Origin: Fimbriimonas sp.
Lineage (GTDB): Bacteria; Armatimonadota; Fimbriimonadia; Fimbriimonadales; Fimbriimonadaceae
Assembly: GCA_031292555.1 (NCBI GenBank)
Contig: JARLGV010000063.1
Location: forward strand, 1 to 64,000
Length of the DNA: 64,000 nucleotides
Direction of reading: 5' to 3'
Positions 7,108-45,428 of the stretch are shown here, piece after piece. Position numbers and translations under genes: made by a program. A model generated the notes under the pieces. The model was not told the origin of the DNA and did no database searches. It was given only the letters and a program-made list of their open reading frames with translations. The stretch's first letter is position 1; each line of letters starts with the position of its first letter.

Positions 7108-9573
7108 TTGGGCGTCAGTTCAGTTGCCATTTCGCCAGATGGCACGCTGATCGCCGGGTGCGGTAGTACGTCTGTGTCGGGCATACAGCGCGGTGTGCTC
7201 GAGTTGTGGAATGCCTCATCTGGAACGCTCGTTTCTTCACTTCACACGACTGCCAACTATGCGCTTTGTTCGGTGGTGTTTTCTCCCAACGGCAAACTGC
7301 TGGCGGATGGCGGCGTGGACGGTTCCTCGAGTTCGGGCGTTGTCGAACTGTGGAACGTGTCGAGCAACAGCCTTGCCCAGTCCCTGAGCACCGAAGAAAA
7401 CGGCGGCGTTCGTTCGGTCGCATTCTCTCAAGACGGAAGCGCTTTGGCTGTGGCCGGTCAGAGCTATAACCCAATCACTAGCGGTTTCCGAAACCTTACT
7501 GAGATCTGGAACGCGATGTCGGGCAACCTGCTGAAAACGCTCAACACCCAAACGTCCAGCTGCATCGAAGCGGTAGCTCTATCGCATGACGGTAGGAAGC
7601 TTGCGGTCGGGGGATATACGCTCGACTCGTACAGCGGGACGCAAACAGGATTGCTGCAGATCTGGGATCCCGCAACCGGCACGCCGATTGGAGCATTCAA
7701 GACGGCTGCTCAATATCAGGTCAGTTCGGTTGCGTTCTCTCCCGATGGCACGCTCCTTGCGGTAGGCGGATATTCGTTCAACCCTAATACCTCGGTTGGC
7801 GCCGGCGTTTTGGAGATTTGGGGGGTTGCCAGCAACACTCTGATCAAGAGCTTGCCAACCGGTGCTGGATCGCAAGTGACTTCTGTTCAGTTCTCCCCCG
7901 ATGGCAAGACGCTATGCGATTGCGGAGTCGTGGATTGGATGAGCGGCGTGCTTGAGCTTTGGAACGTGTCGAGTGGAACGTTGTTGACGACTTTGAACAC
8001 GAATGCGAACCCATCGATCGACGCTGTCGCGTATACACCCGACGGTCAGACGATTGCCGCCGTCGTGGAGCAAAGCGACGGTGTGGACATCGAGCTTTGG
8101 AACGTCTCCACGTTGGCTCTGACCCGTACGATTGGATTGGGAGCGTTTCCATCGCCTCAAAGCAGGTTCTCACTCGCCTTTTCGCCCGACGGATTGAAGG
8201 TCGCCTGCGGTGGGAGCATCACGACGGTCAGCGGTGGCCCGAACGGCATCGTCGGACTCTGGAAGGTTTCAACCGGCCAGCAAGTCGCGTTCCTGTCCCT
8301 TGTGCCTGGCACGAGCTACGTAAATTCCGTTTCGTTCTCGCCCGATGGCAAGGTCCTGTTTGCCGGTACATCCGGCTCGATCCTGCAGGCGTTCAGCATG
8401 TCGAACTACAGCTTCCTGTGCGAATATCCTGCCTACACCGCGGGGGACGTGGAAGCGGTTGCCGTGTCGCCGAATGGCTCGTCCCTCGCACTTAGGACCT
8501 CGTCGGGTGTTGTCGAGTATGCCGTGAACCCATACAGCACGGTGGCGGTCAGCAGCCTTGCGATGAATCCGAGTGAGATTGCAGCCGGAACGTCGTCAAC
8601 GGGCACCGTTACTCTTGCGAGTGCGGCTCCGCCGGGCGGGGACGTGGTCATGCTGGCCAGCGGTGATTCGTCCGTCCTCGTTCCTGCCTATGTGGTCGTC
8701 AAGTCTGGTGCTACCTCTGCCACATTCATGGCGATTACCTCTGCGTCGGCTAACGACCTCACTACGACCATCAGTGCAACTTCAGGTGGGGTGACCGCCT
8801 CAGCGTCCTTGAAGGTGATTGACGTCACGCTTTCCAGCCTGCAACTAGATCCGGCCTTCGTCGCTGGAGGGAATCCGTCGACGGCCACTGTGACCTTGGC
8901 AGTCGCGGCGCCGCCGGCCGGATTCACCATGAGCTTTGTTTCGAGCAGCGCGGTGGCCAAGGTGCAGCCAACTGTTACGGTTCCCGCCGGAGCGACCTCT
9001 GCGGCATTCACCGTAACGACAGTTCCTGTTGACTCGCAGACAAACGCGACGATTTCGACCGGTAGCGGAAGTTCGACGTTTTGGTCAACCCTGACCATAA
9101 TGCCAGCCACGGTGGGATCTCTGGTCTTGGTTCCGTCGACGGTAGGCGTTGGCGGTACTTCGACCGGGTCGCTGACGCTCACCGGTCCCGCTGGTCCGAG
9201 CGGGGTTGTGGTTTCTCTGTCCAGCAACAACAATCTGGTCACGGTCCCCAACACAGTGTCAATCGCCGCCGGGCAAACCTCGGGGAGTTTCACGATCAAG
9301 GTCGCGGCCGTGTCCGTGCCTGGTCAATCGACGTCAACGATCGTCGCGAGCTTGAACAGCCAATCCCAGTCTGCCATCCTCACCTTCGGGCCGACATCGG
9401 TGTCGGCCATCACCGTGAACCCGTCGAGTATTGTCGGAGGAAGGGCTGCCACTGGAACAGTGACTTTGACTGGACCGGCCGGCTCCGGCGGTTTCACTGT
9501 CTTGCTCTCGAGCAAGAATTCCGCGGCCAAAGTCCCGGGATCGCTCAAGTTCGGGCCAGGGCAAAGCAAATGA
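7108..9573 (+). CDS. WD40 and Ig-like repeats, middle piece
   Basis: This 821-codon segment continues the same frame after the TAA. It contains about nine further WD40-type repeats with the consensus (V)xSVAFSPDGxxLAxGG...ELWNVSSGTLxxSL, ending near 8540. Then come the first four Ig-like repeats of about 94 residues (LxxNPSxxxGGxxxTGTVTLxxxAPxG...GATSATFTI). The TTG at 7108 is only the first possible start after the stop and has no ribosome site, so independent translation is doubtful. The C-terminal end at TGA 9571-9573 falls in the middle of the fourth Ig-like repeat. It is best read as the central part of one large exported or surface protein. Confidence 0.6.
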   Translation: MGVSSVAISPDGTLIAGCGSTSVSGIQRGVLELWNASSGTLVSSLHTTANYALCSVVFSPNGKLLADGGVDGSSSSGVVELWNVSSNSLAQSLSTEENGGVRSVAFSQDGSALAVAGQSYNPITSGFRNLTEIWNAMSGNLLKTLNTQTSSCIEAVALSHDGRKLAVGGYTLDSYSGTQTGLLQIWDPATGTPIGAFKTAAQYQVSSVAFSPDGTLLAVGGYSFNPNTSVGAGVLEIWGVASNTLIKSLPTGAGSQVTSVQFSPDGKTLCDCGVVDWMSGVLELWNVSSGTLLTTLNTNANPSIDAVAYTPDGQTIAAVVEQSDGVDIELWNVSTLALTRTIGLGAFPSPQSRFSLAFSPDGLKVACGGSITTVSGGPNGIVGLWKVSTGQQVAFLSLVPGTSYVNSVSFSPDGKVLFAGTSGSILQAFSMSNYSFLCEYPAYTAGDVEAVAVSPNGSSLALRTSSGVVEYAVNPYSTVAVSSLAMNPSEIAAGTSSTGTVTLASAAPPGGDVVMLASGDSSVLVPAYVVVKSGATSATFMAITSASANDLTTTISATSGGVTASASLKVIDVTLSSLQLDPAFVAGGNPSTATVTLAVAAPPAGFTMSFVSSSAVAKVQPTVTVPAGATSAAFTVTTVPVDSQTNATISTGSGSSTFWSTLTIMPATVGSLVLVPSTVGVGGTSTGSLTLTGPAGPSGVVVSLSSNNNLVTVPNTVSIAAGQTSGSFTIKVAAVSVPGQSTSTIVASLNSQSQSAILTFGPTSVSAITVNPSSIVGGRAATGTVTLTGPAGSGGFTVLLSSKNSAAKVPGSLKFGPGQSK

Positions 9574-10239
9574 ACCTTCACGATCCAGACCGTTGGCGTT
9601 CCGGTGAAGCGGATTGCCGACATCGTCGCTTCGTGCAAGAGTGGGTCGCAAACCGCGTCGCTAGAGATTGACCCGGCATCTCTCTTGTCGGTGGCAATTA
9701 CGCCTGGTTCGTTGGCCGGGGGCGCATCGGCCACCGGAACGGTCACTCTCACTGGTCAAGCCGGGGCGGGCGGGACGGTTGTCAAGCTCTCGAGCAGCCT
9801 TGGGTCGACGACTTTGCCGGCATCGGTGACGGTTGCAAACGGGAAAACATCGGCCACCTTCACCATCAAGACGACACCTGTTTCCAGGCAGTCGGTTGCA
9901 ACCATGAAAGCAAGCCTGGGAGCAACTTCGGTGACCGCGACGCTTACGGTCAATCCTCCGTTCCTGGTCTCCCTGAGCCTTTCTCCAACGTCGGTCAAGG
10001 GCGGAAAGTCGGCCAGCGGGACGGTGACCATCGGTTCCGCTGCCCCGGTGGGAGGGTTGTCCGTCGCACTTGGAAGCAACCTATCGTCGGCAACGGTTCC
10101 AGCCACCGTCACGATCGCTGCCGGAAAGACATCCGTGAAGTTCACCGTCTCGACCCTTCACGTCACCGCCAAGGTCGCGGCAACGATTACGGCCAATTTG
10201 GGAGGCGCCACCAAGAAGTCGACACTAACGCTAACTCCG
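8548..10239 (+). repeat. Six tandem Ig-like domain repeats of about 280 bp
   Basis: Six coding repeats of about 94 codons each start with V(S/G)SLxxxPSxxxGG and contain TGTVTLxxxA and GxTSxxFT(I/V) at matching positions. Units begin near 8548, 8830, 9115, 9403, 9685 and 9967. The pattern resembles tandem bacterial Ig-like modules of surface proteins. The fourth unit contains the TGA stop. Confidence 0.75.
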
Positions 10240-10242
10240 TGA
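9574..10242 (+). CDS. Ig-like repeats, C-terminal piece
   Basis: The frame continues directly after the TGA with TFTIQTVGVPVKRIADIVAS and then two complete Ig-like repeats (from SVAITPGSLAGGASATGTVT and from SLSLSPTSVKGGKSASGTVT), ending LGGATKKSTLTLTP. A GTG at 9604 is the first start-like codon, but there is no ribosome site and no signal peptide. As a free protein it would be cytoplasmic and odd, so it is best taken as the C-terminal end of the interrupted gene. No sorting or anchoring signal is visible at the C-terminus. Confidence 0.5.
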   Translation, partial: TFTIQTVGVPVKRIADIVASCKSGSQTASLEIDPASLLSVAITPGSLAGGASATGTVTLTGQAGAGGTVVKLSSSLGSTTLPASVTVANGKTSATFTIKTTPVSRQSVATMKASLGATSVTATLTVNPPFLVSLSLSPTSVKGGKSASGTVTIGSAAPVGGLSVALGSNLSSATVPATVTIAAGKTSVKFTVSTLHVTAKVAATITANLGGATKKSTLTLTP

Positions 10243-10258
10243 CTTGCTTGGGACCTGT

Positions 10259-10933
10259 CTACTTCGTCTGGCCATAGCGGTTGTGGTAGCGGTCGTACCA
10301 CTTCTCGGCTTCTTCGGTCGGAATGACCTTGGGGTCGCCGATTTGCATGGCTAGCCATACGGTTTTGGCGACGTCCTCCGTCATGACGGCCGCTTTCAGC
10401 GCCGATTTTGGGGAATCGCCCCAGGCGAATACGCCGTGGTTTCCCATAAGGATGGCGGGGCTGCGGTTTCGGTACTTGAGGATCGCCTCGCCGATATGCT
10501 CGTCCTCGTTGTCGACGTACGGCGCACAAGGGATCTCGGCTCCAAATTCGTCGGCAATAGCCGTCAAGACGAGAGGAACCGGCCTACCGACGGCGGCGAA
10601 TGCGGTCGCATAGTTACTATGCGTGTGAATGATTCCGCGTACGCCCGGCACGTTGCGATACAAATAGAGGTGATGAGGAAGATCCACGCTCGGGCGGAGT
10701 CCGTTGTCGACGATCTCCCCGGTTTCTACGCAAACCTGTACGAGACACTCAGGCGTGATCCGGTCATAGTCCATGCCGCTGGGCTTGATGACCAGCAAGC
10801 CGGATTCCGGGTCGTAACCGCTGGCATTTCCCGAATGCATGGTGACGAGCCCGGTCTCGGGCAAAAGCTTGTTCGCTTTACATACTTCGACGCGCAGGGA
10901 AGAGAGTCTGGCTTCCGTATCCTTGTCTGACAC
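10259..10933 (-). CDS. araD: L-ribulose-5-phosphate 4-epimerase (class II aldolase family)
   Basis: The 224-residue protein belongs to the AraD/fuculose aldolase family, which uses a metal ion to interconvert L-ribulose 5-phosphate and D-xylulose 5-phosphate. Motifs are HSGNAS (33-38, usually GNxS), KPSG (50-53), the metal-binding HTHS (103-106) and a late HG (NHGVFAWG). Length matches bacterial AraD (about 230). No arabinose genes lie nearby, so it could equally act on a related pentose or be a fuculose-type aldolase. The GTG start at 10933 is preceded by TAAACT with a six-base gap, suggesting a leaderless transcript. It is convergent with the WD40/Ig gene and divergent from the methyltransferase. 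Confidence 0.8.
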   Translation of the reverse strand: MSDKDTEARLSSLRVEVCKANKLLPETGLVTMHSGNASGYDPESGLLVIKPSGMDYDRITPECLVQVCVETGEIVDNGLRPSVDLPHHLYLYRNVPGVRGIIHTHSNYATAFAAVGRPVPLVLTAIADEFGAEIPCAPYVDNEDEHIGEAILKYRNRSPAILMGNHGVFAWGDSPKSALKAAVMTEDVAKTVWLAMQIGDPKVIPTEEAEKWYDRYHNRYGQTK

Positions 10934-33184: not shown

Positions 33185-33880
33185 ATGATTCCCCTGCGCG
33201 ATAATCAAAAGAGGGAGTCGGTTGCTCTTGTCACGCTGACTCTCGTCGCGCTAAATGTGATCCTGTATTTTTGGGATCGGCAGGGACACGTGTTTGGCCC
33301 AAGCGTCGTGTTTGTCGATCTGCAAATGCGTCCGGGGGAAGTGCTCGCTTCGATCCGCGGAGCCTATCAGCGTGAACCGAACGGCGATGTGTTTCCGGTC
33401 GTGACTCTCTTTACATCGATGTTCCTCCATGGCGGATTCACCCACCTGTTGGGGAATATGATTTTCCTGCTTGTGTTCGGCCCTGGGATCGAGGAAGCGA
33501 TCGGTCCGGTCCGGTATGCGCTCTATTATCTGGCGTGGGGGCTCGCAGCCGCCTTTGCCCAAATCTATGTCTATCCCCATTCGATGGTGCCTGTCCTTGG
33601 CGCGTCTGGAGCGATCGGTGGTGTTTTGGGGTCATACTTCCTCTTGTTTCCAAGCAACAAGATCCAGGTGTACTTCCCCATACTGGTGTTTCTGTCGTTC
33701 GGAATCAGTGCCTGGGTTCTTCTGGGCATGTGGTTTGTGTGGCAGATCCTCGTGCCCCAAAACGGGGTAGCTAACTGGGCGCACGCGGGCGGATTCCTTG
33801 CCGGTATGTTGACCGTCTTGGTAATGGGCGGACGAAGCGCCATACTGGGCGGACCCCATTCGGATATCGAAATCACCTAA
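33185..33880 (+). CDS. Rhomboid-family intramembrane serine protease
   Basis: A 231-residue membrane protease. Catalytic Ser141 lies in GASGAIGG, and the partner His200 in [11 protein letters not shown]. The conserved [14 protein letters not shown] segment (about 82-95) forms the oxyanion-side helix, and six or seven membrane segments are predicted. Rhomboids cut transmembrane substrates within the membrane. TAGAAT lies nine bases before the ATG. Divergent from queC; the next gene, a large DUF5693 membrane protein, follows after 39 bp. Confidence 0.92.
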
Positions 33881-33919
33881 CACGCGAGCCGGATCGCTTG
33901 AACCGATAAACACGTATCT

Positions 33920-35854
33920 ATGAGAAATCCCAAATTGCCGGTTTGGCTGATTGCGGCCATCGTCCTATCCGCCGTCTTTTCTTTGTTTTCCGTTTATAGG
34001 AGATGGCAGGTCGAAAACGCAAATCGTGCGGTGTCGATCGCGGTGGAATATGACGTCGAGGAGGGTTTGGCCTCGGCTCAGGGAGTGCCGATCGAACGCG
34101 GCATCGCCGACCTAAAAGCGCAAGGCGTGAATGCCCTGGTTTTGTCGGAAGGCACTATCGGCGAACTCATCTCTAAAGGGCAGGCGACACTTGAAACCAC
34201 CGCATGGCCAGTCGTCCAAGGCTCCAAGAACACGGTTGTTCCCATGTCGACGCTGAGGTTCAGCGATCTGAGCGTTCTGCCCAGGGCTGAGCGCGGCCTG
34301 CGTATCCGTTTCCAGAACCTCGCGAACCGTCTCAAGGGTCGAACGCCCGATACTTTGGATCTCCCCAATGTGTCGCCGCTGTTGGTTCGTTCCACCCCGA
34401 TCGGTCTGGATCCCAGACAGGTCGAGGTCGCCAACGCCTCGGGCATGCAGGTTGTCGCTCGATGCGCCAACCCTCCGGGCATCAGTGCGAGCGGGGTCAA
34501 GCTCACGCTTGCCTGGGTACACGAAGAGGGAGCCAGAGTTTTCCTTCCGGAGGGCGACCAAGTTCTTGGCCGCCGAGAGTCGATTCAGACTACGATCGAT
34601 ACGCTGAAAGAACTTGGGATGTACTATGCAACTCCGGAGTTCGCGAAGATCGGCGGTGACATCAACGTCGTAGAAAAGGCGCCCGGCATCGTCATTCGCC
34701 TTCACTCGGCACAGGTGGCCGAACTGGACAAGTTAACCGCCGACGATGCCGTCGACCGTTATTCAAAGGCAGCACGCGAACGAAACATGCGGATGCTCTT
34801 GATCCGCCCGCTCAGTTACTCCTCCGACCAGCCCAACAGCTCGCTCTGCGCGTTTGTCAAGGAGATCACCAAGCATATACTCGGCGAAGGATTGGCGATG
34901 GGAACTGCAAAGCCCTATAGCGAGCCGTCGCTTCCGCGTTTCTTTCCGGTGATCTTGGCATTGGCAATTGCACCGGTAGTTTGGTTCTCGGTCGCGATCT
35001 TCGTGACGAACAAGCGTTTGCGTTTGGCTGGCGCCGCCCTGATCACGTTGCTCGCGCTTGCGGCTGCCGTGCGGATCGGGCAGCACGCAATGGCGTTCAT
35101 GGGGTCGGTTGCGTTTCCATTTCTCGGGTTCGTCTTTGCAGAAGATTTGCCGACACCGCGACTTCCTTCTTGGGCTCGGCCCCTTCCCGCGTTACTGCTG
35201 ATCAGCCTATTCAGCCTGATCGGCGGTCTGTGCGTTGCCGGCATGCTGAACGGGCTTTCGTTCTATGTCAAGGCAGATGAGTTTACGGGCACGAAGATCT
35301 CAGTCTTTCTCCCGATTCTGGCGGTTGGCATCTACACGATGACCAAGCTCGGAAACTTCAAGAAGGCGCTTGCCAGCCCGATCAATTGGGGCTCGGTCGT
35401 GCTGGGAGTCGTGATTCTCGGCATGCTAGGGTTGATGATTGCGCGAACCGGCAACGACAACGGGGTCGGGGCGAGCGACGGAGAAGTGGCTTTTCGCGGC
35501 ATTCTGGACAAAGTGCTGTTCGTGCGTCCGCGAACGAAGGAGTTCCTCATCGGCCATCCGCTGCTGATCATCGGCTTCGGACTGCTCTACCACGTGAGAG
35601 GGGCACTCAAGGGTACGGCTGGAGACAATCCCGCCGGCGAGCAAAGTAGCCATCCCCTTGCCGGTTGGGCGGCGCTCGCGATTATGGTTGGCTCAATGGG
35701 GCAGACCGACATAGTGAACACGTTGTGCCATTTACATATACCGGTCGTGTTGAGCGTGGTAAGAATCGGGTTGGGCCTGGTGATCGGGAGTATTATCGGA
35801 TTGGTCGGTTGGCAGGTTGTTTCGTGGCTCTTACCAAAGGCCGAGGCTTCATAG
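33920..35854 (+). CDS. DUF5693 family membrane protein
   Basis: A 644-residue protein with one N-terminal membrane helix (VWLIAAIVLSAVFSLFSVYR). An extracytoplasmic domain of about 320 residues follows (AVEYDVEEGLASAQGVPIER onward, resembling a TIM-barrel-like DUF5693 N-terminus). The C-terminal half has eight or more membrane helices. This family is often found beside csaB, as here, where csaB begins on the next base. A role in export or modification of cell wall polymers is inferred from that link only. Confidence 0.82.
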   Translation: MRNPKLPVWLIAAIVLSAVFSLFSVYRRWQVENANRAVSIAVEYDVEEGLASAQGVPIERGIADLKAQGVNALVLSEGTIGELISKGQATLETTAWPVVQGSKNTVVPMSTLRFSDLSVLPRAERGLRIRFQNLANRLKGRTPDTLDLPNVSPLLVRSTPIGLDPRQVEVANASGMQVVARCANPPGISASGVKLTLAWVHEEGARVFLPEGDQVLGRRESIQTTIDTLKELGMYYATPEFAKIGGDINVVEKAPGIVIRLHSAQVAELDKLTADDAVDRYSKAARERNMRMLLIRPLSYSSDQPNSSLCAFVKEITKHILGEGLAMGTAKPYSEPSLPRFFPVILALAIAPVVWFSVAIFVTNKRLRLAGAALITLLALAAAVRIGQHAMAFMGSVAFPFLGFVFAEDLPTPRLPSWARPLPALLLISLFSLIGGLCVAGMLNGLSFYVKADEFTGTKISVFLPILAVGIYTMTKLGNFKKALASPINWGSVVLGVVILGMLGLMIARTGNDNGVGASDGEVAFRGILDKVLFVRPRTKEFLIGHPLLIIGFGLLYHVRGALKGTAGDNPAGEQSSHPLAGWAALAIMVGSMGQTDIVNTLCHLHIPVVLSVVRIGLGLVIGSIIGLVGWQVVSWLLPKAEAS

Positions 35855-36925
35855 TTGGCAGCACATCTTTTATTGGCAGGCTATATCGGATGCGGGAACA
35901 TCGGCGACGATGCGATCGCACTGGGACTCGTTCATGGTCTGGGAAATGCCGGATATGACATCACGGTGATGACAGGTCGGCCGGAAGAGACGAACCGCCT
36001 ATATGGTTTCTCCGTTGTCGATCGGCGCGATTTCAAGGCAATCGAGATGCAGATGGAGCAGTGCGATGCCCTTGTCTTTCCGGGTGGGAGCATCTTCCAG
36101 GATGTTACAAGCGTCAAAAGCGTCGCCTATTATTCGAAGCTAATTGGCATGGCAAAGAAGGCGAAGAAGAAAGTGCTGCTTCTTGCTCAAGGGGTCGGCC
36201 CGCTTGATTCGTTCTTCGGGAAGCGGATGGCTGCATCGGCGTTCAATGATGCCGACGTCATATCGGTCCGAGACCCGGAATCCATTCAGACGCTTAAGAG
36301 CCTGGGAGTCCGCAAGACGCCGCGTTTGACTGCCGATTCTGCGTTCCTGCTTCCGCCGGTCCAGGCATCGGACGAAGGCCAAGGGTTTACGGTGGCCGGG
36401 ATGAAGTCAGTGGGAATATCGGTGCGTCCGCTCGACCGGAAAATCGATGTCGCCAGCATATTCGGCGACTTCTGCCGCCTGCTTTATCAGTCGGGTTCGA
36501 TGCCGGTGCTGATCGAGATGGATCGAGAAGAGGACGGCCCCCTCATCGCTGAGATCTCGAAGAGACAGGGCGGCAAGATTCCCGATTTACGGAAGTTGAC
36601 GACGCCGATGCAACTTCAGCAACGAATGTCGCGCATGGACAGCATCGTTGGCACACGGCTTCATGCCGGGATCCTAGCTGCAACTGTCGGCATTCCGCCC
36701 TTGATGGTGAACTACGACCCCAAGGTGGCGGCCTTTTCGAAGATGATGGAACTCGGCACGCCACTTGCGGTTCAAGGGTTGACGGCTCAGCGCCTAATGG
36801 ACACGTTCACGAGTTTTCAGAGGGACCGCGAGCGAAACGGACGGATTGTTGAGCGAAAGCGCGAGGAGATGCGCAAACTCGCCCAGCTTAACGTGGAACT
36901 GATCTTCGACGCAGTGCGCGCCTGA
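35855..36925 (+). CDS. csaB: Polysaccharide pyruvyl transferase CsaB
   Basis: The 356-residue CsaB adds a pyruvyl ketal to a secondary cell wall polymer, creating the ligand for SLH-domain surface proteins. The N-terminus has LAGYIGCGNIGDDAIALGLV, followed by FPGGSIFQDVTS and LLAQGVGPLDSF. Near the C-terminus RMDSIVGTRLHAGILAATVG keeps the GTRLHA motif of the family. The TTG start directly abuts the TAG of the DUF5693 gene, so the pair is tightly coupled. It suggests an S-layer held by pyruvylated polymer. Confidence 0.9.
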   Translation: MAAHLLLAGYIGCGNIGDDAIALGLVHGLGNAGYDITVMTGRPEETNRLYGFSVVDRRDFKAIEMQMEQCDALVFPGGSIFQDVTSVKSVAYYSKLIGMAKKAKKKVLLLAQGVGPLDSFFGKRMAASAFNDADVISVRDPESIQTLKSLGVRKTPRLTADSAFLLPPVQASDEGQGFTVAGMKSVGISVRPLDRKIDVASIFGDFCRLLYQSGSMPVLIEMDREEDGPLIAEISKRQGGKIPDLRKLTTPMQLQQRMSRMDSIVGTRLHAGILAATVGIPPLMVNYDPKVAAFSKMMELGTPLAVQGLTAQRLMDTFTSFQRDRERNGRIVERKREEMRKLAQLNVELIFDAVRA

Positions 36926-36931
36926 GCAATA

Positions 36932-36950
36932 CTCCTACTTAGGGGTTTTT
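36932..36950 (+). terminator. Possible intrinsic terminator after csaB
   Basis: CTCCT (36932-36936) can pair with AGGGG (36941-36945) around a 4-base loop, followed by five T. The stem is short, so support is moderate. Confidence 0.4.
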
Positions 36951-36985
36951 CAGGAACATCCGGGGTAGTTGTGCGTACTTCCAGC

Positions 36986-38329
36986 ATGCGCTACCAATAC
37001 GCTTTGTTAGTTGTCATCGCCGTAGGCTTGGCCGGATGCGGTGGTGGTGGAGGAGACGGCGGGTATTCGGTTGGCATTGCCGACGTCTCGGGTGTCGTAT
37101 TCGACCAAAACGGAAACGTCGTCCGTAACGCCCAAGTGTTTTACAGCGATTCGTACTCCGGAGTCTTCCGCCAAACCTTGTCGAACAGCAACGGCGCCTA
37201 TGTCTTGAAGGCGGTGCCTGCACTCGACGATCTGATTCAGTGCCAGTTGCAGAGCAACGGCGTTCAGTATTTCGGCCAGAATCTGGCTCGACTTTACGAT
37301 GGGACGAGGACGATGACGGTGAACATCGCACTCTACCCGCAGACCCAGTTGGCGTCGATCAAGGGTACGGTTGCCGATAGCCATGGCAACTTGCTGGTGA
37401 ACGCCAAGATCTTCGCGATCCCGGCTGCAGGCCCCACGCTAAGCAGTTCCTATGGGATCACCGACAACACTGGTAACTTCTTCATTGGGGGTCTTGTGTC
37501 CGGAACGAAATACAGTATCCAGGTGAATGGTCTCGGTTATAACAGTGCGATCGACACAGAGACCCTGAACGCTGGTCAGGTCCTGACCGTAAACTACAGC
37601 CTCCCTCCGGCCTCGAACACAACCTTGGGGCCCCCTACCAACGTCAACGCGATCGCATACACTTCGCCCGGTGAGGCCACGACCAATCTACGCATGCAGC
37701 GGGCGATTTCGGCGATCAAGAACCTCTCCACTCCGGGCCGATTGGTCAAGCACATGGCGATCGGCAAGAGAACGACGAGCTATGGCGGCACGGTTGAAAT
37801 TGATGTATCGTGGACTCCGATCTCAAATACGTCGTTGCTCGGATACGGAATCTACCAAGCCGTCGGAAACCAAAAGCTGGTGAACGTAGATCTCCTGCGC
37901 GATCCGCTTGCCTCGGTATACGAGGACATGTATGGGGGCTTGGTCAGCGGGCAGACTTACACGTATGCGGTAACCACGGTGAGCACCGGCGCTACCAACA
38001 CGAGTGGAGAAAGCGGTTACAGCAACCTAACCGCGGTCACACCCTTGGGCCCGCTTTCGATTGGGAACGTTGTGACATCAACGCAGCCGACTTTCTCGTG
38101 GTCGCAAGCGTCCGGTGCGGCAAATTACGCCCTAATGCTGTTCAGCCAGTACCCTGACATCGGCGTTACCGACATCTTCGACAACCTGAACAATCCGGTG
38201 ACGGGCACCTCTTACACCTATAGTGGGACCTCCCTAAAGAGTGGACAGACATACTACTATGTCTTGGTCGGCTTTTCGTCGGCGGGAAGCCAGAGCATCA
38301 GCCCGGTCGGCCAGTTCACTGTGCCCTAG
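36986..38329 (+). CDS. Lipoprotein with carboxypeptidase-regulatory-like and Fn3-like domains
   Basis: From the ATG at 36986 the protein has 447 residues. The lipoprotein signal ends in VGLAGC (Cys18) followed by a Gly-rich tether. Two carboxypeptidase-regulatory-like beta domains come next (VSGVVFDQNGNVVRNAQVFY and IKGTVADSHGNLLVNAKIFA). After a linker there are fibronectin-III-like segments (VSWTPISNTSLLGYGIYQAV; TQPTFSWSQASGAANYALML). It should be anchored in the outer membrane or face the periplasm; binding function is likely but the ligand is unknown. A GTG at 36971 is an alternative start. A strong hairpin follows the gene. Confidence 0.75.
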   Translation: MRYQYALLVVIAVGLAGCGGGGGDGGYSVGIADVSGVVFDQNGNVVRNAQVFYSDSYSGVFRQTLSNSNGAYVLKAVPALDDLIQCQLQSNGVQYFGQNLARLYDGTRTMTVNIALYPQTQLASIKGTVADSHGNLLVNAKIFAIPAAGPTLSSSYGITDNTGNFFIGGLVSGTKYSIQVNGLGYNSAIDTETLNAGQVLTVNYSLPPASNTTLGPPTNVNAIAYTSPGEATTNLRMQRAISAIKNLSTPGRLVKHMAIGKRTTSYGGTVEIDVSWTPISNTSLLGYGIYQAVGNQKLVNVDLLRDPLASVYEDMYGGLVSGQTYTYAVTTVSTGATNTSGESGYSNLTAVTPLGPLSIGNVVTSTQPTFSWSQASGAANYALMLFSQYPDIGVTDIFDNLNNPVTGTSYTYSGTSLKSGQTYYYVLVGFSSAGSQSISPVGQFTVP

Positions 38330-38338
38330 CTCCTTCAT

Positions 38339-38360
38339 CGGTGCGGGGCATCCCGCACCG
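38339..38360 (+). terminator. Hairpin terminator after the Fn3-like lipoprotein gene
   Basis: CGGTGCGGG (38339-38347) and CCCGCACCG (38352-38360) form a perfect 9-bp stem with a GCAT loop, 10 bases after the stop codon. There is no T-run, only AAACCTAGTTT, so termination may need other factors. Confidence 0.6.
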
Positions 38361-38420
38361 AAACCTAGTTTGCGCAGTCCGGAACGATCGAAGCCGGTAA
38401 CCTGTTGATGAAAGGTAACG

Positions 38421-39875
38421 ATGGCTTCGGTAGGCATAAAGGCGAAAGGGCGAGTAACGCGGTTGATCAATGCCGGTTGGGTGATCGGCTGCATTGTGGC
38501 GTTGCCACCGGCCTATAACTATCTTAAGGGCTACGTGGCTTCGGACCCGTTCAACACCCTGTTCTCCAAGGGGCCGTCCGACATCGACGACTCTATTGGA
38601 GTGCGAATGAACGGCGTTGAGATGCGTGACTATAGCGGCTCGAGATTGGTGGGGAGTGCCCATGCTCGGAGGGTAGATATCCGCAAGGATCGGCAGTACG
38701 TCGATCTGTATGACGTAACGAACGGCGTCTACCATAGCGACAGAGGGCAGTTCACCTATTCAGCGGTGACTGCCATCTGGAACGTCGGCGCCAGGTTGCT
38801 GATCGTGAACAAGAAGCTGACGGTGCATAACAAGGACATGGACCTCAAGGCGAATGGCCTTACCTTCGAAGGGCATTCCGGCACGATGACCATAAACGGG
38901 GCTGTTTCCGGCCGACTCTACCAAGGACAGATCTTGGCTGCTTCGGTTCGATACAATGTGGACAGTCGTGAAGCCGAAGCGGGCCCGGTCGATTGGGTAG
39001 GCAAAATCGACTTGGGCCAAGAAACGACCGCCCAGTCTGGGCCCCGGCAATGGAAGATACATGGCGCCCACAGCAAAGTGTCGGGCGATATCGCGATCTA
39101 CGAAAAGGCCACTGCGAGCGATGGCGACCTCATCGTAAGCGCGCCGATCGTGGAGCACAACCGTAAGACGGATGTCCTGAACGCAAGCGGTGGCATCCAA
39201 TACTATTCGGCAAAGGCCGATATCTTGGCTGACAAGTGCATCATCTATCGCAAGGAGAAGCGCACGGTCCTATCCGGCCATGTGACGATGTTCGTCAAGC
39301 CGAAGAGCGCTGAAAACGATGAGCCGAAGGTTGAGAAGCTGCCCGATTTCAAGCCGGTCTCTCCGGAACAGGTTGTTGCCTCTCATGTAACGCCCCAGCC
39401 GGACAAGGAAGCACAGAAATCGATGGAGGAGGAGATCCGGTCCAGCAAAAACCTTCGAGAGTTCCCGATGGTCGTCGTTGCTTCGCAGATTGAGTATTGG
39501 TATGCAAAGGGAAGTCGGCACGCTATCATTACCGGCGATCCTCAGGGGCGCCAGACCCTCAAGGGGGACGAATGGCGTCACCTTTGGACTCACGAGGCGT
39601 TTTACGACGGGGAAAACGACAAACTCAAGCTCGTCAGTTCCGAAAGGAAGAAGGATACGTTGATGAAGAACTCGCTGGGAGACTTCACAAAGGCGATCGA
39701 TATCACGGTCTCGACCAAAGAAGACGACGACGAGATGGATTGCGACGATCCAGAGGGAGTCATTAACACGTTCGACGACGAAATCCCTCGGGATGACAAG
39801 AAGCAGGACGGCAAGGGCGTCCCCCCTCCCGTTAAGGGAGGGTCCGGCGGGGGACTCGCTGTTGCCTCAGCCTAA
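38421..39875 (+). CDS. LptC/OstA-like LPS export protein, unusually long
   Basis: A 484-residue protein with an N-terminal membrane helix (about residues 15-32). Long stretches of short beta strands then resemble the LptC/LptA (OstA) jellyroll: [54 protein letters not shown], and a late region with [20 protein letters not shown]. LptC-type proteins hand LPS from the inner-membrane transporter to the periplasmic bridge. Typical LptC has fewer than 200 residues, so this one may combine LptC- and LptA-like domains. AAAGG precedes the ATG. The 3' end overlaps the convergent HD gene by 4 bp. Confidence 0.68.
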
Positions 39876-40432
39876 CCGACGCCAGCGAGCCCGAGGGCCT
39901 CTGCGTTTGCTTGCATCGCCTCGATGAGGTTGGCTATGTGTTCGTCCAGAGGCAGTCCGATCTCCTCAGCGCCTCGGTAGACGTCGTCGCGCTTGACGCC
40001 GGCTGCAAAGGCAGGCGTCTTGAGTTTCTTGGTGACGCTTTTTACTTCCACTTCGTGGATGCTCTTGCTGGGGCGGACGTAGGTGACGGCAGTGATGAAC
40101 CCACTTAGCTCATCGCACGCATAAAGGTATTTCGCCAATTGCGAAGTGCGAGGGACGCCGGTGTAATCCGCATGTCCGGCGATCGCTTCGATCACGTCGG
40201 CGGGCCATCCGGATTGCTCAAGCAGGTTCATGCCCCATTGGGGATGTTCATCGGGATGTGCCTCGTAGTCGAAATCGTGGAGCAATCCCGTTGCTGCCCA
40301 CTTCTCTGCATCCTCCCCCAAGCGAATGGCATACCAGCGGAGACAGGTCTCCACGCCAAGGCAGTGTCGTCGCAACGATTCACTATCGGTGTGCTGGGTT
40401 AGCAGACGCCACGCTTCCTCTCTATTGTGCAT
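39872..40432 (-). CDS. HD-domain phosphohydrolase
   Basis: A 186-residue protein of the HD superfamily. Metal ligands H23, H52-D53 ([11 protein letters not shown]), H87 (AGHADY) and an Asp in YACDEL are all present in the right order. Related proteins are often annotated as HDIG-type metal-dependent hydrolases acting on nucleotides. The substrate is unknown. It stands alone on the minus strand between the LptC-like gene (4-bp convergent overlap) and the M42 peptidase gene (divergent, about 90 bp). Confidence 0.85.
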
Positions 40433-40511
40433 TCCATCATTTTGTCACCCGGAATGCTCAATTTATCGTATATTGGACTCGGTACGATACGGGACGAAAA
40501 GCCTAAGCTGC

Positions 40512-40517
40512 TATTCT
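40512..40517 (+). promoter_or_regulatory. -10 box, leaderless promoter of the M42 peptidase gene
   Basis: TATTCT is followed by seven bases and the ATG at 40525, with no ribosome site between. Confidence 0.5.
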
Positions 40518-40524
40518 GTCATCT

Positions 40525-41601
40525 ATGCGAAGTGAGTCTCTCTCGTTCCTGCAGGACATCGTTAACGCGCCTAGCCCATCCGGCTACGAAGAGAGAGCGG
40601 CCCACGTCTACCGGACGTACACCTCCAGTTTTGCCGACAAGGTGACGACCGACATTCACGGAAGCGTAGCCGCCATCCTCAATCCAGGCGCCGAGATGAA
40701 AATCATGCTCGCTGGGCATATGGACGAGATCGGTTTCATCGTGCATTACATTAGCGACGACGGCCTACTCTATTTCGGCGGCATCGGTGGCCATGACAGC
40801 GTCGTCCCGGTCGGTCAACGCGTATGGATCCACGGCAAGGAGCGTGTGCCGGGTGTCATTGGGCGTAAGGCTATCCACCTGCTCGACGACGACGAGCGGA
40901 AAAAGAAGCCTGAACTCAAGGACCTCTGGATCGATATCGGCGCCTCGACTCGAGCCGAAGTCGAAGCGGTCATCCAACTCGGAGACGTCGTCACTTATCA
41001 GGTCGAATTTCAGAAGCTGATGGGTGATCGAGCTACCGCTCGAGGCTTCGACAACAAGATGGGCAGTTTCATCGTCGCTGAGACCCTCCGACTCCTACAG
41101 GAGGATGGTGGACTACATCCCTCAGTCGGAGTCTACGCAGTGGCCACCGTGCAGGAGGAGATCGGCCTTCGCGGCGCCAGAACCTCGAGCTACTCGATTG
41201 CCGCTCAATCGGGACTTGCCGTGGACGTGAACCATGCGATCGATTACCCTGGAGTCAGCAAGACACGATATGGTTCTCTCGATGTCGGCAAAGGGCCGTC
41301 CGTTATGCGCGGCGCGAATGCGAATCCAATCGTATTCCGAATGATTTGCGACGCGGCCAAAGAGGACGGCATTCCGTTCCAGGTTGATGTCACTCCTGGC
41401 GGAACCGGCACCGATGGAAATGCGATGCAGATCAATCGGGGGGGGATGGCGGTCGGCATTCTTGGCGTTGCTTTGCGGTACATGCACACGCCATGCGAAG
41501 TCCTGTCGCTCGTCGACGTGGAAGACTGCGCGCGCCTGATGGCAGCGTATTGCCGGCGCGTAATGCCAGATACGGACTTTACGCCACGGCTTGGCCTCTA
41601 G
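40525..41601 (+). CDS. M42-family metal aminopeptidase
   Basis: A 358-residue cytoplasmic aminopeptidase of the M42 (FrvX/glutamyl aminopeptidase) family that forms large tetrahedral complexes and trims peptides. Metal-binding and catalytic segments visible are AGHMDEIGFIVHYI (about 59-72), RGFDNKMGSF, ATVQEEIGLRGARTSSYSI and DVNHAIDYPG, and the late HTPCEV provides the last ligand. Length matches the family. A PA-like lid domain lies between. The gene is monocistronic. Confidence 0.93.
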   Translation: MRSESLSFLQDIVNAPSPSGYEERAAHVYRTYTSSFADKVTTDIHGSVAAILNPGAEMKIMLAGHMDEIGFIVHYISDDGLLYFGGIGGHDSVVPVGQRVWIHGKERVPGVIGRKAIHLLDDDERKKKPELKDLWIDIGASTRAEVEAVIQLGDVVTYQVEFQKLMGDRATARGFDNKMGSFIVAETLRLLQEDGGLHPSVGVYAVATVQEEIGLRGARTSSYSIAAQSGLAVDVNHAIDYPGVSKTRYGSLDVGKGPSVMRGANANPIVFRMICDAAKEDGIPFQVDVTPGGTGTDGNAMQINRGGMAVGILGVALRYMHTPCEVLSLVDVEDCARLMAAYCRRVMPDTDFTPRLGL

Positions 41602-42084: not shown

Positions 42085-42711
42085 ATGGAAAAATGCGGAT
42101 CTAGAGCCTGTAACAGGGACATTGAAATCGGTTGGAACTTCTGTCCAACTTGTGGAAAGGACAGGCGTCCGGAAGCTTTCCGGCCGACAATCGTCGGATG
42201 CCAGCACCGATTCATACGACAATCCGGGCATTGTGTGATTTGCGGACGGCAGTTCGGCAGACACAACGCAAACGCGGCAAATATTCGATTCGGCGTTGTT
42301 CTATCGCTGGTAGGCGCCTGTGCCGTCGTGCTTTCGTTCGTCTTGAAGGAGGTTGCCTTCGCGGGAGGCGGCTTCGGTTACACGTGGGTGAACTCCTGGT
42401 ATGACCAGGCGGTCGTATTGCCGGGCAATATCGTTCTATACGGAACGGAATCCCCCAAGTATTTGTTGCTTACGGGCGCATTTCTCGCGTTTCTTGGTGT
42501 TGTCGGCACTATGGGAGCCAAACGGGAAAGCAACGCTCGACTCCAGCGAAAGCCGGTCCGGAAACCTCGTCCTATTGTTGCGCCAATGGTTCAAACCAAT
42601 ACGGTGATACAGGAATGCCCTCCCCAAGACTGCCCAATCGAAGCCTTGACGGCATTTGAACAGGAGCCGGCTTGGATGGCTGATCGCGACGCAATGCCTC
42701 ACGTGGCGTGA
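42085..42711 (+). CDS. Double zinc-ribbon membrane protein, paralogue 1
   Basis: This 208-residue protein opens with a zinc-ribbon-like pair of knuckles, CGSRAC...WNFCPTCGKDRRPEAFRPTI, followed by CQHRF and CVICG (a second pair), all in the first 55 residues. Two membrane helices follow (about 69-88 and 127-144), separated by an outside loop YTWVNSWYDQAVVLPGNIVLYG. The C-terminal 60 residues are basic, then acidic. It shares order, spacing and the WVNSWYD/VLYG loop with the next two genes. No known family is recognised; the likely arrangement is a cytoplasmic metal-binding head on a hairpin membrane anchor. Confidence 0.7.
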   Translation: MEKCGSRACNRDIEIGWNFCPTCGKDRRPEAFRPTIVGCQHRFIRQSGHCVICGRQFGRHNANAANIRFGVVLSLVGACAVVLSFVLKEVAFAGGGFGYTWVNSWYDQAVVLPGNIVLYGTESPKYLLLTGAFLAFLGVVGTMGAKRESNARLQRKPVRKPRPIVAPMVQTNTVIQECPPQDCPIEALTAFEQEPAWMADRDAMPHVA

Positions 42712-42806
42712 ACCAGGGCTTTCACCAACCCCAACGTCAACTGAAGATCGACGTCAGGAAGTCGTTCCAGTCTTGGGGCATGGCCTAGTAGGACCGCAAT
42801 AATGAG

Positions 42807-43430
42807 ATGAACACCCCTTTGGTCTCCTGCGATCCGCTACTGGCCAATGCGTACATGGTGGGTAGCAAAACAGCGGCTGGCTCGCGTACCATTACGACGG
42901 TGCCCAAGTGTCTTACGAAGCGTTGCCATCAGGTTGTGCAAGCAGGATGGAGTTTCTGTCCGCTTTGTGGACGTGATAATCGTCCAAACGAGTTTCGTCC
43001 GACGATTCTGAACTGTCCGCATAAGTTCGCCGGTCCGAAGTGCTACTGCGTGATCTGCGGAGATGGATATGGGGGGGCTAAATCGGCAAGCGGGACGCGA
43101 GCGAATATCCGATTCGGCAAACTCCTGATCTTGATCGGAATCGTGTTGGTCGTCTTTGCGGTGGGCATAAAAACCATCGGAACGTCTGGGAAAGGACCCG
43201 GCATCAGTCTCATCCAAGCGATATACAACTGGTCGATCGAGCTACCTGGACCGTTCGTGCTCTACGGCAACAGCCTGCCCGCATATGCCCTGATTGCAGG
43301 GCCGGTGATTGCGATGGTTGGCATCGTCGGTATTGCGGCCGCCAATGCGGCAAAGCCGCGTCCAAGACGCAAGACTGCCCCAAAGCATGCGGCGAAGCCG
43401 GCAGAGACGCAGACCGACGAGCCGTCTTAG
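42807..43430 (+). CDS. Double zinc-ribbon membrane protein, paralogue 2
   Basis: A 207-residue paralogue of the preceding gene. After a 33-residue N-terminal extension it repeats the same pattern: CLTKRC...WSFCPLCGRDNRPNEFRPTI, then CPHKF and CVICGDGYGG, two membrane helices, and the outside loop LIQAIYNWSIELPGPFVLYG. The shared FRPTI and (N/E)LPG...VLYG segments between paralogues 1 and 2 show duplication. The start could also be the internal ATG before VGSKTAAG. The C-terminus is Lys/Arg/Ala rich. Function unknown. Confidence 0.68.
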   Translation: MNTPLVSCDPLLANAYMVGSKTAAGSRTITTVPKCLTKRCHQVVQAGWSFCPLCGRDNRPNEFRPTILNCPHKFAGPKCYCVICGDGYGGAKSASGTRANIRFGKLLILIGIVLVVFAVGIKTIGTSGKGPGISLIQAIYNWSIELPGPFVLYGNSLPAYALIAGPVIAMVGIVGIAAANAAKPRPRRKTAPKHAAKPAETQTDEPS

Positions 43431-43508
43431 GTGGGCATAGCCGCTCGATGCACCCAGAAACGGGTCGGCTGCATCGAAACCTTCACCAAGGCGTATGAAT
43501 GAGAGTAA

Positions 43509-44000
43509 GTGGTTCATTGCGTTTCCGAAACCTGCCGCCGCGAGATTGACGAGGACTGGGATTTCTGCGCCTACTGTGGAGCCGATAACCGGGCCCCGGA
43601 GAAGCGTTACCGGGTTCGATACTGCATTCACCGATATCCGGACAACCAGCATTTCTGCATCTTCTGCGGGGGGAGATACGGCGACCGGTATTGGGAAGTG
43701 CCGGCATGGCAGCGTCGAATCGGTTTTTTGGCGATCGCAGGAGGGGCACTGCTTTGGCTCGCCGCACTCGTGATCTGGCTTGTACATACAAAGGGACAGG
43801 GCGCGCTTTTCCAGTGGGTCAACTCGTGGTACGATGCCACCCACACGGAATACTCGCGCTACTCCGGGCCGCATCAGGTTGCCAACGGGCGTTCGATAAT
43901 CGGTGACCTGTTCCTGGGCGGCATATTTGGGTTCCTTGCCGGCGGTTCGATGGTCTCGACTCCTCGCGCAAAGTTCTATTCGGACGATACGTGGAACTAG
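43509..44000 (+). CDS. Double zinc-ribbon membrane protein, paralogue 3
   Basis: The 163-residue third member is shorter and more diverged: CVSETC...WDFCAYCGADNRAPEKRYRV, then CIHRY and CIFCGGRYGD. It retains the WVNSWYD motif of paralogue 1 in the outside loop (LFQWVNSWYDATHTEYSRYS) between two helices, and lacks the long charged tail. It starts at GTG 43509. The three genes run in the same direction with gaps of 95 and 78 bp and may be separate transcripts. Function unknown. Confidence 0.68.
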   Translation: MVHCVSETCRREIDEDWDFCAYCGADNRAPEKRYRVRYCIHRYPDNQHFCIFCGGRYGDRYWEVPAWQRRIGFLAIAGGALLWLAALVIWLVHTKGQGALFQWVNSWYDATHTEYSRYSGPHQVANGRSIIGDLFLGGIFGFLAGGSMVSTPRAKFYSDDTWN

Positions 44001-44009
44001 GCGACTAGC

Positions 44010-45428
44010 TTAACACTCGCTGACGCTTACGGGGATATAGAGGGCCAAACCTCCTTCAGCAGTTTCTTTGTATTTGGCATTCATGTCGAGGGCGGTCGCC
44101 CACATTGATTGAATGACGGCGTCCAGGGAGACTTTAGCGTTGTCCGGATCGCTGTCCATGGCTATATTTGCCGCCGTGATCGCCTTGATCGCGCCCATCG
44201 TGTTGCGTTCGATGCAAGGAATCTGTACGAGGCCGCCGATCGGGTCGCACGTAAGGCCGAGGTGGTGCTCCATCGCGATTTCCGCCGCCATCAGCACTTG
44301 GTCGACGCTGCCACCAAGGCATTGCGCCAAACCGGCCGCCGCCATGGCCGACGATACGCCAATCTCAGCCTGGCACCCACCCATTGCCGCCGAGATCGTC
44401 GCACCCTTTTTGAAAAGGCTGCCAATCTCGCCGGCGGTGAGCAGAAACTCCTCGACCTTCCTTTGATCGGCATCGCAGAAGCAGGTCAGATAGAGCAAAA
44501 CGGCCGGGATAACCCCGGCTGCCCCGTTCGTGGGGGCGGTGACGACACGTCCGAAGGAGGCGTTTTCCTCGTTTACTGCCAGCGCGAAGCAACTGACCCA
44601 ACGAGAGACGTCCTGGAAGCGATCGGCGCCCGCGCGGATTGCCTCGATCCAGCGATCAGGTGAGTCGTATGAAGTGCCCTCAAGCAGCTTGGCGTTGATC
44701 TGAGCGGCTCGCCGCCGTACTTCGAGTCCTCCCGGCAGCACGCCTTCGGTATGGCATCCCTTGAACACACATTCTTTGAAGGTGCCCCAAAGCAGGGCGA
44801 TGCCGCGATGGATATCCTCAGCCGACCGCCAGGTCAACTCGTTGCGCCAAACGATCTCCGGGATCGTGGAGTTCTGATCGACGCAGTAAGTCGCCAACTG
44901 ATGGGCATGTTCGATGGGAAAAGGGAGGCGCGTCACCTCCGGTCGGTCGTCCGGAACGGACTCCTTGACCACGAACCCGCCACCGACTGAGTAGTAGGTC
45001 TCTTCGAAGGTGCCTCCACTGGCGAGGATAGCCGTAAAGGTCAACCCGTTGGCATGGAACGGAAGCGCCCGATCCATGTGAAATACGATGTCCTCGGCGT
45101 GGTCGTATGGCACGTCGAACTTACCAAGCAAAGGGATGACGCCGCTTGACCTGACGTCTTCCACGGTCTTGTGGATGAGCAACGTGTCACAGGTTGCGGG
45201 ATTCTCGCCCAGCAGGCCATGGACGATCGCAATGTCGGTGCCGTGACCTCGGCCTGTCTTGGCCAGCGAGCCGAATAGGTCGACCCGGACGCGTATCACG
45301 GAGCGTATGAGCGAGCGGTCGACGCATTCGGCAAGGAACCGGCGAGCTGCTCGCCAAGGCCCCATGGTGTGCGAACTGGAGGGTCCGATCCCGATCTTGA
45401 AGATGTCAAAGATGCTGATCGCTTCCAT
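44010..45428 (-). CDS. sdaA: L-serine ammonia-lyase (iron-sulfur type, single chain)
   Basis: A 472-residue enzyme that deaminates L-serine to pyruvate using a [4Fe-4S] cluster rather than PLP. The N-terminal beta domain begins [20 protein letters not shown], and the C-terminal alpha domain includes [34 protein letters not shown] and [19 protein letters not shown], whose Cys residues are cluster ligands. Fusion of both domains matches the Gram-negative type. It starts 8 bp after the lipB stop on the same strand, so the two are probably co-transcribed. Confidence 0.94.

Follow-up and report, generated by a model that had tools for sequence, protein, structure and literature searches.

Tandem genes of Fimbriimonas sp. 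encode a fast-changing family of predicted double zinc-ribbon, two-helix membrane proteins

Three neighbouring genes on the + strand, at 42085-44000 of the window (the whole stretch of 64,000 nucleotides that was analysed), encode homologous proteins, here P1, P2 and P3, in which a predicted N-terminal double zinc ribbon is followed by two hydrophobic helices. The frames are open, in agreement with the preliminary description, and P1 used as a single query retrieved P2 at E 2.9e-37 and P3 at 6e-14, as well as two further copies on two other contigs of this genome, unlinked to the locus (C1 at 1.2e-17 and C54 at 2.8e-9). P1, P2 and P3 form a real homologous family, and their similarity is not due to chance. 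A longer P2 frame opens with ATG at 42807 (42807-43430, 207 aa), but GTG at 42900 is the likelier start because the homologues begin M-x-x-C. The features of the locus are as follows.

42085..42711, + strand: P1, predicted double zinc-ribbon, two-helix membrane protein of 208 aa; open frame, homologues in genome and genus, AlphaFold mean pLDDT 78
42094..42153, + strand: P1 first ribbon, C4-X4-C9-X10-C20-X2-C23; Cys invariant in the alignment of 15
42199..42243, + strand: P1 second site, C39-X-H41...C50-X2-C53; H41, C50 and C53 invariant, position 39 C or H in 15/15
42289..42345, + strand: P1 membrane helix 1, residues 69-87; mean hydropathy 2.62, within the modelled helix 57-92
42346..42462, + strand: P1 segment between the helices, residues 88-126, containing WVNSWYD and LPGNIVLYG; short helix (97-106) and beta-hairpin (109-119) in the model, conserved beyond hydropathy
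42463..42519, + strand: P1 membrane helix 2, residues 127-145; mean hydropathy 1.96, with a basic tail behind it (8 K/R and 1 acidic in the next 25 residues)
42900..43430, + strand: P2, second copy, likely start GTG 42900, 176 aa; homologues start M-x-x-C, 41% identity to P1 over residues 2-160
43509..44000, + strand: P3, third and most divergent copy, GTG start, 163 aa; open frame, homology
40525..41601, + strand: context, M42 aminopeptidase, upstream neighbour (Pfam PF05343, E 2.7e-77); adjoins the family in G019, G005 and G004
44010..45428, - strand: context, single-chain L-serine dehydratase, downstream and convergent (Pfam SDH_alpha and SDH_beta)

The 480-base gap that separates M42 from P1 contains no remnant of a fourth copy. 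Long frames on the opposite strand of the P1-P3 stretch (e.g. 43242-43874) gave no useful score with the family profile, and promoter and terminator scans at the locus returned no more signals than in shuffles.

The N-terminal module spans about 55 residues and reads C-X4-C-X10-C-X2-C, then [C/H]-X-H...C-X2-C. The preliminary description had proposed two CxxC-type Cys pairs with a central W-x-F-C-x2-C-G-x-D-x-R; the latter motif is present as given, and the first site does consist of four Cys, whereas the second combines [C/H]-x-H with C-x2-C and is therefore no repeat of the plain CxxC arrangement. Seven positions (C4, C9, C20, C23, H41, C50 and C53) are invariant in the 15 aligned members, so that the Cys pattern expected in homologues is retained throughout, while position 39 is Cys in 10/15 and His in 5/15, a switch by which the metal ligand is preserved. 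All ligands of both sites are kept in 12/12 full-length members, and two putative metal sites with four ligands each, as in DZR, are present as a sequence pattern in all members. When the zinc module of P1 was modelled alone, AlphaFold gave a pLDDT of 88 and a pTM of 0.70; the models were built without metal, and zinc is read from the ligand pattern. A Foldseek search of the PDB with this module returned no match.

Comparison with known families divided the claim of an undescribed family in two. No full-length match was found in Pfam, NCBIfam, PHROGs or PADLOC, but the zinc module falls in the Zn_Ribbon_1/DZR group, and at the level of this one domain a named family was matched: P3, and it only among the three copies, passes Zn_Ribbon_1 (PF13240; 27.3 bits over two stretches, gathering score 25), with P1 and P2 below the cut-off (13.3 and 15.0 bits). 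The gathering score of DZR (PF12773; 27.3 bits) was not reached by P1, P2 or P3 (17.3, 13.9 and 20.8 bits, respectively), and at E ≤ 0.01 DZR was matched by 12/15 members and Zn_Ribbon_1 by 10/15. The likeness to both models lies in the first ribbon, and the family differs from them in its second site, of the form [C/H]-X-H plus C-X2-C, and in the homologous membrane hairpin that follows. A further zinc-ribbon model, DUF7575 (PF24460), was matched weakly by P3 over residues 8-25 only (18.8 vs. 28.5 bits, below the cut-off). DUF983 proteins also carry Cys pairs followed by two membrane helices; membership in that family (PF06170) was rejected, P1 scoring 13.2 bits (E 0.12) where the cut-off is 22.6, and P2 and P3 giving no score. 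As judged from these profile comparisons, the zinc domain is a known one of the Zn_Ribbon_1/DZR group, and only the whole protein would be new, within the libraries searched. The same genome holds at least six other Zn_Ribbon_1 matches, so zinc-ribbon modules are ordinary in it. A limited literature search found nothing linking Fimbriimonas with zinc ribbons, which is weak evidence of absence. PADLOC gave no match to anti-phage defence, and among the phage families of PHROGs only phrog_9700 was retrieved, by P3, at E 0.061.

In the membrane half, two hydrophobic helices enclose a segment of approximately 35-45 residues in P1-P3, with the loop words as first reported: WVNSWYD is shared by P1 and P3, and LPG..VLYG by P1 and P2, and in members from genus g17 the inter-helix segment lacks WVNSWYD. 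A profile of the membrane half that was made from members outside the window scored P1, P2 and P3 at 70, 47 and 34 bits, respectively, against at most 13.7 bits for shuffles (300 per protein, hydrophobic pattern kept), and direct comparison of the membrane halves gave E 6e-20 for P1-P2 and E 4e-5 for P1-P3; these halves are homologous, beyond mere hydrophobicity. The model of whole P1 (12-row alignment; mean pLDDT 78, pTM 0.58) comprises a helix at 57-92, a short helix at 97-106, a beta-hairpin at 109-119 and a helix at 120-154. Searched against the PDB, it retrieved generic helix pairs only, with Z under 8; matches to helix pairs of glycosyltransferases and pore proteins, also under 8, were read as common helix hairpins. 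Basic residues precede helix 1 and trail helix 2 in genus members, which by the positive-inside rule fits both ends lying inside, the signal being weak in P3 and in copies outside the genus.

Zinc ribbons are common in nucleic-acid binders, and this, together with the basic C-terminal tails of genus members, would accord with ribbons that hold RNA or DNA, or the ribosome, at the membrane. We consider such tethering improbable: a sequence search of the PDB gave no significant match to a zinc protein (best E 0.064), and no linked translation or DNA genes are common to its loci.

A single local triplication was rejected (P1+P2+P3 clade, p-AU 0.023), whereas a P1+P2 clade was not (p-AU 0.18). With moderate support, P1 pairs with the second copy of G019 and P2 is closest to the first, so the order of the copies may have been swapped, and the highest identity of P3 in the tree set is 34%, to the unlinked C1 copy. 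A tandem pair is also present in G025. Copies at the genus locus share 28-56% identity between genomes, compared with 81-85% for M42 and 71-78% for the dehydratase, conservation being higher in the zinc module than elsewhere in the protein: the family genes change much faster than their neighbours, metal ligands excepted. Low identity, patchy presence and the differing order of apparent orthologues in G000 and G019 are what would be expected of near-neutral lineage genes drifting fast and kept open by chance. We nonetheless regard drift as very improbable, given that eight ligand positions are kept across at least three genera, that the membrane half is conserved too, and that non-synonymous change is well below synonymous change between G005 and G004 (pN 0.29, pS 0.88; no dN/dS ratio is given, owing to saturation at synonymous sites). 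With ligands kept and frames open, it is plausible that the copies are functional paralogues, as had been suggested.

The family is patchily distributed. Matches at E ≤ 1e-4 were found in 14/85 genomes of the same bacterial family, in 5/32 genera, with full-length forms in three genera (g1, g7 and g17). Across the phylum, the ribbon profile matched in 20/291 genomes, the weakest of these matches resembling generic ribbons. A further genome scan relied on the A5 alignment and one peptide pattern, and reaches close relatives only. The plasmid collection yielded no family match, and a single viral-contig match of 24 residues was read as a generic ribbon. Within the genus, the M42 gene is present in 20/20 genomes, with zinc-ribbon genes beside it in four of them (three copies in G000, two in G019, and one each in G005 and G004) between M42 and the dehydratase; G008, of the same genus, is without the family. 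The L-serine dehydratase is restricted, within the genus, to those same four genomes, and its arrival at the M42 locus together with the zinc-ribbon genes looks like one gain in one clade. Their co-occurrence thus counts once and says little in favour of a functional link. Outside the genus the neighbours vary (an apiosidase and sugar-transport genes; ubiE and an AlkZ-like gene; dnaK; hydrolases) and, differing from locus to locus, name no partner. In two genomes of genus g17 (L027:7789-10347 and L062:3399-5935) the zinc-ribbon gene and dnaK (HSP70) point away from each other across a short upstream region common to both, an arrangement that is not seen in G136.

The neighbourhood bears on two further explanations. 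A zinc- or redox-responsive membrane sensor, in which Cys oxidation or zinc loss would alter the hairpin and signal across the membrane, would be in keeping with a Cys-rich module connected to an ordered segment between the helices and with the several copies per genome; it is unlikely, since no kinase, sigma factor or regulator gene is common to the loci, and the ligands are arranged as in stable structural ribbons, the only variation seen among them, C to H, again giving a ligand. An accessory role in envelope assembly or stress, like that of zinc-ribbon proteins near Psp/Lia systems, would suit the upstream block of the genus, with its lipoprotein-like protein, DUF5693 protein and polysaccharide pyruvyl transferase. 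Zinc ribbons joined to membrane domains are known from Psp contexts, e.g. YdjG and ZnR-PspC near Psp/Lia systems (PMC11237479), and the present proteins resemble these in having N-terminal zinc ribbons joined to membrane segments; unlike them, they matched no PspC, Toastrack or NTF2-like part. Such a role appears quite unlikely, as Pfam detected no PspA, PspC, Toastrack or LiaF domain in the family or in the scanned near neighbours, and the HD and M42 genes separate the block from the zinc-ribbon genes.

The reading that we favour, with about even confidence, is that of an accessory membrane adaptor, whose predicted cytoplasmic double zinc ribbon would serve as a docking surface and be anchored by the helix hairpin in the inner membrane. 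The product of each gene would be a small hairpin protein of the inner membrane, its N- and C-terminus both cytoplasmic; the double zinc ribbon at the N-terminus would fold around two structural zinc ions and dock a cytosolic partner, the two helices would anchor the protein in the membrane, and the outward helix and beta-hairpin may contact the envelope side or a second subunit. The family itself, its ligand pattern, the homology of the membrane half and the synteny within the genus are established; that the proteins bind zinc, lie in the membrane in this way, act in docking and have a partner is what we infer. Such an adaptor would be accessory rather than housekeeping, present in several copies in some genomes, and its surface would change fast while the metal sites stay fixed.

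The docking reading draws on the kept ligands, on the model of the zinc module and its matches to Zn_Ribbon_1 and DZR, on the basic residues flanking the helices in genus members, and on genes that change fast but least so in the zinc module. It also draws on a protein of G042 (L029:4754-5578) that joins the module to an OB-type domain: the same double ribbon is followed by a hydrophobic helix and then by a tRNA_anti-like OB domain (PF12869, E 4.1e-7), a layout that would connect an inner module, across the membrane, with another kind of outer domain. Against it stand the varied neighbours, which make no partner evident, the g17 inter-helix segment without WVNSWYD, and the weak positive-inside signal in P3 and in copies outside the genus. 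A broader version, in which these are lineage-specific trans-membrane adaptors with one conserved double ribbon and interchangeable outward parts (helix plus hairpin, or OB domain), is improbable; if true, it would give these bacteria a set of receptors or docking proteins that evolve fast and vary from copy to copy within a genome. As it stands the family overturns or settles nothing. It adds a real, unmodelled family with a usable profile to a poorly studied phylum, and, as its metal sites stay fixed while the genes change fast, it is a fair subject for studying the role of membrane-anchored bacterial zinc ribbons.

Several minor observations were made at these loci. A similar ribbon-helix-domain layout occurs at L070:4240-4962, and at L032:7743-8702 a double-ribbon membrane protein shares its frame with a DinB_2 domain (E 1e-7), through a fusion or an overlooked stop. 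In G019, the L-serine dehydratase (L022:9217-10634) is apparently split into overlapping frames, 9220-10137 and 9930-10634, by a frameshift or an assembly error. The block at 33185-41601 of the window encodes a rhomboid protein, a DUF5693 protein, a polysaccharide pyruvyl transferase, a carboxypeptidase-regulatory-like protein, a 484-aa protein, an HD protein and M42, and is largely retained in G019, G004 and G005; the 484-aa protein (38421-39875), which has no Pfam match, has relatives in the same place in these three genomes.
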